Shown: in pieces, positions 342-13,511 of the stretch
How positions within the stretch are numbered: position 1 is the stretch's first letter
Layout of the letters: every line of letters begins with the position of its first letter
Assembly (NCBI RefSeq): GCF_002105535.1
Contig: NZ_CP015848.1
Coordinates: 1,884,856 to 1,948,855 of the forward strand
DNA from: Magnetospirillum sp. ME-1
Lineage (GTDB): Bacteria; Pseudomonadota; Alphaproteobacteria; Rhodospirillales; Magnetospirillaceae
Direction of reading: 5' to 3'
Length of the DNA stretch: 64,000 bases
Program-made: the position numbers and the translations under genes
The notes under the pieces: generated by a model
What the model was told of the DNA's origin: nothing
What the model saw: only the letters and a program-made list of their open reading frames with translations
The model's database searches: none

Positions 342-764
342 CTACCGCCCGGGGACCGAGCAGACTCCGTCGCTGCGCGGGCAGGTCTCCGGGATGGGCT
401 CGAAGGCCGGGGCCAGCCCGATCCAGCCGGCCACCGCCGCCTCGTCGAAGCCGGCCATGCGCCGGCCGCCGCTTTCCATCAGGGGGCGGCGGATCAGCAG
501 CGGGTCCAGGCACATTTCGGCCAGCGCGTCCTCTTCCCCCATGGCTTCCGGCACCACCGCCCCCGACTTGACCCGAGGGGCCGCGCGGTTGAACCATTGC
601 GCCACCGGCAAGCCCGCGAAGAACGGCCGCAGCGCTTGCGGCGTCCAGCCCTGGGCGCGGATATCCAACGCCACCACGTCGTGTCCCGAACGCGACAGCA
701 GCTGCTTTTGCCGGGTGTTGTTGCTGCAGCCCGGCTTTTCGTAGAAGACGACCAGCGCCATCAT
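342..764 (-). CDS. ArsC-family nitrogenase-associated protein
   Basis: This is a 140-residue protein of the arsenate-reductase-like thioredoxin fold, of the type recorded in nif clusters as 'nitrogenase-associated protein'. The N-terminus has a beta strand followed by EKPGCSNNTRQ, placing one cysteine at the ArsC catalytic-loop position. An FNRAAP segment resembles the ArsC 'N-x-x-x-P' region. I chose the MM start at 764 because GGGAG precedes it; a longer upstream frame lacks this support. The start lies 12 bases beyond the draG stop, so it is probably the third gene of a draT-draG operon. True arsenate reduction is unlikely from context; its role in nitrogen fixation is not established. Confidence 0.8.
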   Translation of the reverse strand: MMALVVFYEKPGCSNNTRQKQLLSRSGHDVVALDIRAQGWTPQALRPFFAGLPVAQWFNRAAPRVKSGAVVPEAMGEEDALAEMCLDPLLIRRPLMESGGRRMAGFDEAAVAGWIGLAPAFEPIPETCPRSDGVCSVPGR

Positions 765-775
765 CCGTTTCTCCC

Positions 776-1702
776 TTACGCCTTGTTCTTGAACGTGTCC
801 GCCACCGCCAGCAGGGCCGGCACCTGGGTGCGGATCTCGTCGGCCACCGCCTTGTCCAGCTTGCTCAGCCATGCCGACGGAATCTCCCGCACGCCATAGG
901 TGGCCCCGGCCAGCATGCCGGCGATGGCCCCGGTGGTGTCGGCGTCACCGCCCTGGTTGACCACCTCGATCAGGCAGTTGCGGAAGGAATCGGTCAGGAA
1001 ATAGAAGTGCAGCACCGTCTGCATGGTATCGACGATATAGGCGGTGGACTGGCCGCGGAAGGTCTCGAACCGGAAGCATTTATGCTTCTCGACCAGGGCG
1101 TTGGCCTCGTCGCGCGCCGCCTTCATGCCCAGACCGGCCACCAGCGCCTGGGTCATGCGCCCCAGCGCCAGGGTGGCGTCGTCGGACAGGGGGTGGTGGT
1201 GGGTGACGTGGCTCTGGGTGACGGTCCAGTCCTCGAACAGGGCCGGGTTGCCCAGGGTGGCCAGGGCGATGGGAAGGTTGCGCATGGCCGCGCCGTTACC
1301 GGCGTCGCCCTCGCAATAGCCGCCATCCAGGGTGCCATGGGTCATGAAGCGGCGGATACCGCGCCGGCAGGTGTTGCCCACGTCCACCGGCCCGCCCTTC
1401 AGCCACAGGGCGAATTCGTCGCACACATCCTTGAGGTCCAGGTCCTGTTTGCGGACCAGCGAGCGGCCCAGGCACAGGCTCATCTCGGTGTCGTCGGTGA
1501 CCTGGCCCGGAGCCAGGTGCAGCCAGCCGCCGCCGATCATCTTGCGGTGCAGGCCGTACTTCTCGCGGATTTCCCCCTTGGTCAGGAACTCGACGGTGGC
1601 CCCCAGGGCGTCGCCGACGGCAAAGCCCAGATAGGCGCCGAGCGCGCGTTCCTCCAGGCTTGGGCCGGATGAGGATGATCGGTCGAGGAAGGGCAATCGC
1701 AT
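776..1702 (-). CDS. draG: ADP-ribosyl-[dinitrogen reductase] hydrolase DraG
   Basis: The 308-residue enzyme removes ADP-ribose from the nitrogenase Fe protein and restores activity when ammonium is exhausted or light/energy returns. The di-manganese ADP-ribosylhydrolase signature is visible: GDALGA near residue 30, TDDTEM at 69-74 and GGDADTTG at 251-258, whose Asp/Thr residues bind the metals. Start ATG at 1702 gives the family length; the frame continues upstream only as a shadow of draT. It starts 11 bases after the draT stop and is followed closely by the ArsC-like gene. Confidence 0.96.
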   Translation of the reverse strand: MRLPFLDRSSSSGPSLEERALGAYLGFAVGDALGATVEFLTKGEIREKYGLHRKMIGGGWLHLAPGQVTDDTEMSLCLGRSLVRKQDLDLKDVCDEFALWLKGGPVDVGNTCRRGIRRFMTHGTLDGGYCEGDAGNGAAMRNLPIALATLGNPALFEDWTVTQSHVTHHHPLSDDATLALGRMTQALVAGLGMKAARDEANALVEKHKCFRFETFRGQSTAYIVDTMQTVLHFYFLTDSFRNCLIEVVNQGGDADTTGAIAGMLAGATYGVREIPSAWLSKLDKAVADEIRTQVPALLAVADTFKNKA

Positions 1703-1713
1703 GGGAAATCCAA

Positions 1714-2529
1714 TCAGAAATAGGCCGCGGCGACCTGGTAATCGCCACCGATCACCAGATACTCGCCCTCGCCCTTCAGGGGATGGACGGGCAGCAGAGT
1801 GTTGAAGAACAGGATCTTCACCGTCGGCACCCGGGCGGTGAGGATGGTGTCGCCGAAGCAATCGGCGACCGTGCGGTCCGACGAAAACGACGCCAGGTTG
1901 TTGAGGCGCATCACCACGGTCTTGCGGTCCAGGCGCTCGACCACCTGGTGCTCGTCGAAGGAATTGATGCCCCGATACAAGGTGACATGGGTCTGCCCCG
2001 GCGCGGCGAAGCGGGCCAGCGCCCACTGGCAGAACTCGTAGAGCATGTCGAGCTGGCAGTAGATGGAGTTGTTGTGAAAGCGGCTCGACATCTTCTCGTC
2101 CACATAGGTGGCCCAGCCCTGGGTCGAGAAGCGGGTGATCATCTCCTTGTGAAAGGTGGGAAACAGCCCGAAGCGGCTTTCCACCCAGCCTTTCAGCACG
2201 GCGCCCTCGGGGCCGTTGGAATCGTAGCCCCAGCCCTTCAGCAGCCGCAGGAAGCTGGAACGGTAGCGCCGGCGCGCACCCTTCAGTTCCTCCTGCTGCT
2301 CGGGATCGATGCCGAACATGGCCATCATGTATTTATAGAAGGCGTCGCCGGCATCCATCAGGCCGTCCGACCGGCCCAGCATCTCGAACAACTGCCCGTT
2401 CATCTCGCGCACGCCGGAAATGTGCAGCTCGCGCGGGTCCTCGTTGAAGGCCGCCGATCCCAGAAGGCTGGTGGACAGGCCCATCAGGTTGGTGCTGTGG
2501 CCGATGCTGTGCGCCCGCGCGTCGTTCAT
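1714..2529 (-). CDS. draT: NAD(+)--dinitrogen-reductase ADP-D-ribosyltransferase DraT
   Basis: The 271-residue enzyme transfers ADP-ribose from NAD+ to the conserved Arg of NifH and switches nitrogenase off. The sequence is full length for the family, with LYRGINSFDEHQ and the later Phe/Ser-rich LASFSSDRTVADCFGD segment typical of DraT. Its target, Arg100 of NifH, is encoded just across the divergent control region. It heads a draT-draG-arsC-like unit. A sigma-54-like site at 2686-2700 points at it. Its predicted leader of about 145 bases contains a REP-like inverted repeat. Confidence 0.96.
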   Translation of the reverse strand: MNDARAHSIGHSTNLMGLSTSLLGSAAFNEDPRELHISGVREMNGQLFEMLGRSDGLMDAGDAFYKYMMAMFGIDPEQQEELKGARRRYRSSFLRLLKGWGYDSNGPEGAVLKGWVESRFGLFPTFHKEMITRFSTQGWATYVDEKMSSRFHNNSIYCQLDMLYEFCQWALARFAAPGQTHVTLYRGINSFDEHQVVERLDRKTVVMRLNNLASFSSDRTVADCFGDTILTARVPTVKILFFNTLLPVHPLKGEGEYLVIGGDYQVAAAYF

Positions 2530-2585
2530 GTGTCAGCCGGAGCCCCTCTATAGTCGGACACGCCATCCTGACGACCAACGGGAGA

Positions 2586-2665
2586 AAGGATCTCATCCTG
2601 GTCCGGCATGTCCGGGACGGAACCGCCATTCCAAACGGAGATCCCTCGCCGCGCTCGGGATGACC
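2586..2665. repeat. REP-like inverted repeat, family A copy 1
   Basis: An imperfect inverted repeat begins with AGGATCTCATCC and ends with GAGATCCCTCGC...CGGGATGACC. Copies with the same outer GTCATCC/GGATGAC and inner (A)GGGATCT arms occur at 12745-12834 and 27532-27629. It would form a long hairpin in the leader of draT. No open frame in it is credible. Confidence 0.7.
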
Positions 2666-2685
2666 TTACTTAACGGCCACCTCAT

Positions 2686-2700
2686 GCAAGCTCCGTACCT
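2686..2700 (-). promoter_or_regulatory. Sigma-54-like promoter for draT
   Basis: Read on the minus strand the site is AGGTACG-GAGC-TTGCA, with the essential GG (2699-2698) and GC (2687-2686) in the required GG-N10-GC spacing. It differs from TGGCACG-N4-TTGC at two positions. The two NifA-type sites of the nifH promoter lie about 42 and 72 bases upstream of it, so they could serve both directions. Predicted RNA start is near 2675. Confidence 0.6.
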
Positions 2701-2741
2701 TTTGGCACAAGCCGATGGGGCGGGGTGAAAACCCCCGGTCC

Positions 2742-2757
2742 TGTTGGGGTTGCAACA
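2742..2757. promoter_or_regulatory. NifA-type upstream activator site 1
   Basis: The sequence matches TGT-N10-ACA exactly. It lies about 121 bases upstream of the nifH -24 element and 30 bases (centre to centre) from the second site. It is placed between the divergent nifH and draT promoters. Confidence 0.8.
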
Positions 2758-2771
2758 CACGGACGGCGCTT

Positions 2772-2787
2772 TGTCGGATTCCGCACA
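2772..2787. promoter_or_regulatory. NifA-type upstream activator site 2
   Basis: A second exact TGT-N10-ACA match lies 91 bases upstream of the nifH -24 element. A 13-base core, TTGTCGGATTCCG, recurs at 13446-13458 beside the iscA activator site. Confidence 0.8.
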
Positions 2788-2877
2788 GACGCACAAAAAG
2801 CGGGCACATGCCCGACACACACCATCATCACATTGTTTTTATTGAGTAAATTATTTTCGCTGCGCCGCACACAAACT

Positions 2878-2892
2878 TGGCACGCCCGTTGC
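2878..2892 (+). promoter_or_regulatory. Sigma-54 promoter of nifHDK
   Basis: TGGCACG-CCCG-TTGC is a perfect match to the sigma-54 -24/-12 consensus, with GG at 2879-2880 and GC at 2891-2892. It sits about 70 bases before the nifH start and downstream of two NifA-type sites. Confidence 0.95.
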
Positions 2893-2940
2893 GATGAGGA
2901 GACCGTGGCGGTGGCCGTGTCCTCGCCGAGCAAATTTTAG

Positions 2941-3852
<912 letters not shown>

Positions 3853-8613: not shown

Positions 8614-8629
8614 TGTCGCACTTGCGACA
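8614..8629. promoter_or_regulatory. NifA-type activator site of nifE
   Basis: TGT-CGCACTTGCG-ACA is an exact TGT-N10-ACA site. It is the core of a perfect 14-base-arm palindrome (8606-8637, 4-base loop). It ends 52 bases before the nifE -24 element. No T run follows the palindrome, so a terminator role for the lipoprotein gene is possible but less supported. Confidence 0.8.
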
Positions 8630-8680
8630 ATGGCCGGCTGGCGTTTAAGCGCAATCCAGCATTTTCGCCATTTTTCATGA

Positions 8681-8695
8681 TGGCACGGCCCTTGC
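8681..8695 (+). promoter_or_regulatory. Sigma-54 promoter of nifE operon
   Basis: TGGCACG-GCCC-TTGC is a perfect -24/-12 match, 36 bases before the nifE ATG. Confidence 0.95.
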
Positions 8696-12857: not shown

Positions 12858-13478
12858 ATGGCCAAGGAAACCTATTCCCGCCTGATGTCCGGCCCGGGAA
12901 GCGGCGATCCCTTCGACCGCCACCTGTTCGCCTGCGCCATCGCCATGGCCCTGTCCAGCCCGGGCGAGAGCCTGACCGTCGGACTGGGGCTTTCCGAGGA
13001 AGGACTGGCCGCCCTGGTGGGCCGTCACTTCCCCCATGCGCCGGGCCTGCTGTCCGGCCTGTCGCTGTCGGGCCACGGCGACAAGCCCCTGACCATCGAG
13101 GAGCCGGACCTGCGCGCCCTGCTGCTCGAGCACCGGACCCGCGGCCTGATCGAAGAGGAATGGCTGGCCCATATCGTGGCGCGGCGCTGCCTGGGCTCCA
13201 ACCATCTGTGGCAGGATCTGGGGCTGACCAGCCGCGCCGACCTGTCGGGGCTGATGCGCCGCCATTTCCTCGGGCTGGCCGAGCTGAACAGCCGCGACAT
13301 GAAGTGGAAGAAGTTCTTCTACCGCGAACTGTGCCAGCGCGAAGGCGTGCTGATCTGCAAATCCCCCAATTGCGAGGTCTGCACCGATTACGCCCATTGC
13401 TTCGGGGCCGAGGACGGGGTGGCGCTGCTTGTCGCAAAGCCGACATTGTCGGATTCCGTCCCGGCCACTATCGTTTAA
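12858..13478 (+). CDS. nifQ: Molybdenum donor protein NifQ
   Basis: The 206-residue protein carries an Fe-S-Mo cluster and passes molybdenum to NifEN/NifH for FeMo-cofactor synthesis. The diagnostic C-x4-C-x2-C-x5-C pattern is present at Cys167, 172, 175 and 181. The start at ATG 12858 follows AGGAGGA; the longer open frame overlaps the fdxB and DUF269 genes and is rejected. Its last 50 bases contain the activator site for the next promoter. Confidence 0.94.
   Translation: MAKETYSRLMSGPGSGDPFDRHLFACAIAMALSSPGESLTVGLGLSEEGLAALVGRHFPHAPGLLSGLSLSGHGDKPLTIEEPDLRALLLEHRTRGLIEEEWLAHIVARRCLGSNHLWQDLGLTSRADLSGLMRRHFLGLAELNSRDMKWKKFFYRELCQREGVLICKSPNCEVCTDYAHCFGAEDGVALLVAKPTLSDSVPATIV
13430..13445. 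promoter_or_regulatory. NifA-type activator site inside the 3' end of nifQ
   Basis: An exact TGT-N10-ACA lies within nifQ coding sequence. It ends 52 bases before the -24 element at 13497, the same spacing as at nifE. A degenerate second copy, sharing 13 bases with nifH site 2, follows at 13446-13458. Confidence 0.7.
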
Positions 13479-13496
13479 TTTCAACCGATTAACACT

Positions 13497-13511
13497 TGGC
13501 ACCCTTCTTGC
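13497..13511 (+). promoter_or_regulatory. Sigma-54 promoter of iscA-nifV-nifW
   Basis: TGGCACC-CTTC-TTGC has correct GG-N10-GC spacing with one difference from the consensus. It lies 46 bases before the iscA ATG and 19 after the nifQ stop. Confidence 0.85.

Follow-up and report, generated by a model that had tools for sequence, protein, structure and literature searches.

Are the enzymes that switch nitrogenase off made under the same control as nitrogenase itself? The window analysed here, a stretch of 64,000 nucleotides, raises this question at its very start, where the minus strand carries a nifO/draB-like gene, draG and draT, the plus strand continues with nifH, nifD and nifK, and draT and nifH diverge from a common intergenic gap of 435 bp (2530-2964). 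DraT and DraG form a textbook system of reversible enzyme modification, and their expression has so far been viewed mainly through Rhodospirillum rubrum, in which study of the nitrogenase switch-off enzymes began. The elements that bear on the question are these:

342-764, minus strand: nifO/draB-like gene (NCBIfam TIGR01616, above cut-off), 11 bp after draG
776-1702, minus strand: draG (NCBIfam TIGR02662, above cut-off), 11 bp after draT
1714-2529, minus strand: draT, dinitrogenase reductase ADP-ribosyltransferase (Pfam PF07357 DRAT, 371.6 bits)
2564-2665, no strand assigned: dispersed palindromic repeat, about 102 bp in length and present about 40 times in the genome; falls within the predicted 5' leader of draT
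2685-2700, minus strand: draT-ward sigma-54 (-24/-12) site, AGGTACGGAGCTTGCA, 2 mismatches, GG-N10-GC spacing
2742-2757, no strand assigned: activator site 1, exact TGT-N10-ACA, TGTTGGGGTTGCAACA, a conserved footprint in the genus alignment
2772-2787, no strand assigned: activator site 2, exact TGT-N10-ACA, TGTCGGATTCCGCACA, conserved in the genus alignment
2878-2892, plus strand: nifH-ward sigma-54 (-24/-12) site, TGGCACGCCCGTTGC, 0 mismatches to TGGCACGN4TTGC, kept in relatives
2965-3852, plus strand: nifH, first gene of nifHDK (NCBIfam TIGR01287, above cut-off)

The DraT product matches its Pfam family over the full length of the model (residues 13-267 of the protein). Since draT, draG and the nifO-like gene are spaced 11 bp apart, the three are likely to form a single transcript.

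Putative promoter elements and the predicted draT leader

The sequence elements described for this gap are confirmed. A sequence-only reading of the window had described a perfect sigma-54 promoter towards nifH, a GG-N10-GC site with two differences towards draT and two exact TGT-N10-ACA sites between them, and all were recovered at the positions listed above. The draT-ward core, AGGTACGGAGCTTGC (2700-2686, minus strand), has the sigma-54 form, with GG and GC ten bases apart in a TGGCACG-N4-TTGCA-like context; the -24 box on the draT side differs from the consensus in its first base and, in many cases, in its fourth. Its exact form, RGGTAYGN4TTGCA, occurs a single time in the 4.55-Mb genome, at the draT gap. 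The looser class of sites with two mismatches is scattered across the window, so that one such site in a gap of this size is not very rare by itself and is suggestive only. Taken alone the draT-ward site is thus weak evidence, and it becomes strong through the comparison across loci described below.

From the position of this site, the draT transcript is predicted to start near 2674. Downstream of the promoter and ahead of the draT start codon lies the dispersed repeat, whose ends read TGTCATCC...GGATGACA and which lengthens the predicted leader to about 145 bases; it is predicted to fold as a hairpin in either strand, at about -42 to -44 kcal/mol. Alignment revealed that it is missing in the nearest relative (97% DraT identity) and in most other relatives, and that it is found at the same place in a relative at 94%; a same-place copy was noted in locus L003. 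An RNA switch in the draT leader was considered and dropped, because an Rfam search of 2400-3000 returned no match and the predicted folding of the leader was not clearly better than that of shuffled sequences (z -0.97).

Conservation of the draT-facing site

The comparative analysis used draT loci of the same family and order, together with a sample from the class. The test set comprised 75 distinct loci from 33 genera in which draT and nifH diverge with fewer than 900 bp between them; a draT-ward site was scored when it had three mismatches or fewer and lay within 175 bp of draT, with dinucleotide shuffles serving as the null. Such a site was present in 56 of the 75 loci, against 3.2 expected from the shuffles, and at two mismatches or fewer it was still present in 33 (0.6 from the shuffles). 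Since loci within a genus share ancestry and are not independent, the count by genus, 22 of 33, is the safer figure. Real sequence of equal length gave far fewer hits: four in the nifH-proximal segment on the same strand, one in the draT-proximal segment on the other strand and one at the start of the draT coding region.

The pattern of change within the site is that of a sigma-54 promoter, in that across loci the core bases are kept and the spacer and flanks drift. Among 49 non-redundant draT-ward sites, GGNANG is nearly invariant at its A and G, and most spacer and flank positions vary. The TT before GC is invariant in all 49, though the selection did not demand it, and a downstream T is kept in 37; part of the conservation across these sites is circular, as they were selected by mismatch count. 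On most loci the draT side matches the consensus less well than the nifH side, which would fit a weaker expression of draT. Upstream of the nifH leader, the genus alignment is conserved mainly at the draT-ward site, at both activator sites and at the nifH promoter.

Activator sites and a probable two-way control region

The activator sites are placed where NifA-type control of draT would be expected to need them. TGT-N10-ACA sites lie within about 150 bp upstream on the draT side, site 1 at 41 bp and site 2 at 71 bp from the draT -24 box, and site 2 is 90 bp upstream of the nifH-ward site. Counting the motif across the window was uninformative and was set aside as evidence, with five occurrences found and 5.24 expected; at that density the probability of two within one 435-bp gap is about 6e-4. 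Two of the remaining three occurrences (8614 and 13430) each precede a sigma-54-like site (8681 and 13497, respectively) by 51 bp, and the first of these pairs (8614-8695) precedes nifE. The draT and nifH region is similar to these pairs in having TGT-N10-ACA upstream of a -24/-12 site; the pairs are one-way, whereas the gap holds paired sites for two divergent promoters. Across most loci the distance from the draT-ward site to activator site 1 is 29-58 bp, a range that brackets the 51 bp of the two window pairs. The second pair (13430-13511) is found at the start of a long reading frame, which matches nifV only from residue 150 onwards.

The genome encodes the regulators that such a region would use, with one NifA and one RpoN above curated cut-offs. 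The sequence-only reading predicted a separate sigma-54 promoter for draT beside NifA-type sites common with nifH, and this gains support from this complement of regulators and from the conservation over 22 genera. Independent support comes from the reconstruction of the alphaproteobacterial NifA regulon by Tsoy et al. 2016, which reports candidate NifA sites ahead of draTG in both Magnetospirillum and Rhodospirillum (PMC4999443). For Magnetospirillum, the control of draTG by NifA is therefore already a published prediction. As the gap is common to draTG and nifH, activator sites alone cannot be assigned to draT, and those in the gap are explained equally well by nifH alone. In the text available, Tsoy et al. 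list activator sites only, whereas the draT-ward core promoter described here separates the two genera. What the present comparison adds is this core promoter, the breadth of its conservation over genera and its absence from R. rubrum.

A draT-ward site that is a real sigma-54 promoter could also answer chiefly to NtrC or another enhancer-binding protein, in which case draT would respond to nitrogen limitation and not to NifA specifically. The genome does encode further enhancer-binding proteins, with matches to the NifA model that fall short of its cut-off, and in three loci (L103, L105 and L136) the nearest TGT-N10-ACA is 180-400 bp from the draT-ward site. Against this, most loci carry two exact NifA-type sites 29-84 bp upstream of the draT-ward site, the usual NifA arrangement, and the genus alignment contains no other conserved block between draT and the activator sites. 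NtrC as the activator is therefore possible and less likely than NifA, and we regard this reading as an unlikely one.

Taken together, these features make it probable, from sequence comparison, that the gap is a two-way NifA/sigma-54 control region serving both nifH and draT-draG-nifO. Under this model NifA would bind the two TGT-N10-ACA sites and activate RNA polymerase-sigma-54 at a presumably strong nifH promoter, and the same bound NifA would also activate a separate, weaker promoter facing draT, from which draT, draG and nifO would be transcribed together. Through this shared activation the switch-off enzymes would be made when nitrogenase is made, and DraT and DraG would be ready to act immediately on the arrival of ammonium. 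Should NifA control draTG in the majority of relatives, nitrogenase and the enzymes that modify it would have a common on-switch, and models of switch-off would change accordingly, with no DraT before nitrogenase and no renewal of DraT once ammonium shuts NifA off.

Rhodospirillum rubrum and other natural variants

A minority of the divergent loci are without a draT-ward site, R. rubrum and its relatives among them. The draT group furthest removed, with identity of about 40% or less, likewise has none. The locus of R. rubrum ATCC 11170 (L075, second replicon a 100% match to NC_007641.1) has the same gene order and orientation as the window, the TGT-N10-ACA pair and the nifH-ward sigma-54 site, but its gap holds no draT-ward GG-N10-GC site at three mismatches or fewer. 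The same absence at this threshold was found in its relatives L081, L082 and L087. The only R. rubrum candidate, TGGCGCACATGGTGCG with four mismatches, was rejected, being part of a palindrome, 20 bp from an activator site and not conserved in the relatives. Consistent with this absence, R. rubrum DraG has been described as constitutively expressed (PMC6067124), so that the statement in the sequence-only reading of draTG expression independent of nif control in Rhodospirillum holds. Its further claim of a design unlike that of Rhodospirillum is likewise supported, as R. rubrum keeps the activator sites and has no draT-ward site; those activator sites probably serve nifH only. On balance we favour the view that NifA control through a dedicated draT promoter is usual across the order, as well as in certain related alphaproteobacteria, with the constitutive expression of R. 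rubrum as an exception that would have arisen through loss or lack of the promoter with the activator sites retained. Such a pair of lineages offers a natural comparison of the same genes and the same activator sites with and without a draT promoter.

The constitutive expression reported for R. rubrum is also one reason to ask whether draT is transcribed in the window from an ordinary sigma-70 promoter only, the GG-N10-GC match being decorative or serving something else. A second organism points the same way: in Azoarcus olearius BH72 draG1 rises 19-24 fold under nitrogen-fixing conditions, whereas draT is unresponsive and has been proposed to share a transcript with other genes (PMC8467165), an arrangement that differs from the one described here. 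The behaviour of R. rubrum has little bearing on species that carry the site, since R. rubrum itself is without one at the threshold used. Conservation of the draT-ward site far above chance, and the absence from the genus alignment of any conserved block between that site and draT, make purely constitutive transcription very improbable. A tentative further possibility, which overlaps with the two-way NifA/sigma-54 region and does not exclude it, is that the sigma-54/NifA promoter boosts draT during nitrogen fixation above a low constitutive level. Expression of dra genes outside nif control in other lineages (PMC6067124, PMC8467165) would suit such a dual arrangement, and the alignment is compatible with a sigma-70 promoter, a class that is poorly conserved; the analysis found no direct sign of a second promoter. 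The passages found in a study of transcript starts in M. gryphiswaldense (PMC9549626) contain nothing on nif or dra.

Loci in which the arrangement has been altered provide further views of the draT-ward site. In L101, L103 and L105 extra sequence splits draT from nifH and the draT-ward site remains near draT; in L138, which also carries extra sequence between the two genes, the site is closer to the activator sites than to draT. Telmatospirillum and related metagenome-assembled genomes (L048, L049 and L054) have draT not opposite nifH but downstream of nif genes on the same strand. Family models identified nifV in L049 and nifW in L048, and the order in Telmatospirillum is nifV-nifW-draT; as draT there follows nifV and nifW, nif control would persist by another route. 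Other draT loci that lack a nifH neighbour have unrelated genes nearby or lie at a contig edge, and a search of a plasmid collection returned one distant draT only.

Second copies of draT, away from nifH and without a draT-ward site, were observed in L114-L116 (genomes G042, G036 and G035), at 46-48% identity to the DraT of the window, and in R. rubrum (L094, C2:1641110), at about 65%. These copies are possibly tied to an alternative nitrogenase. In one further locus (L083, genome G004) draT is divergent from, and adjoins, nifA.
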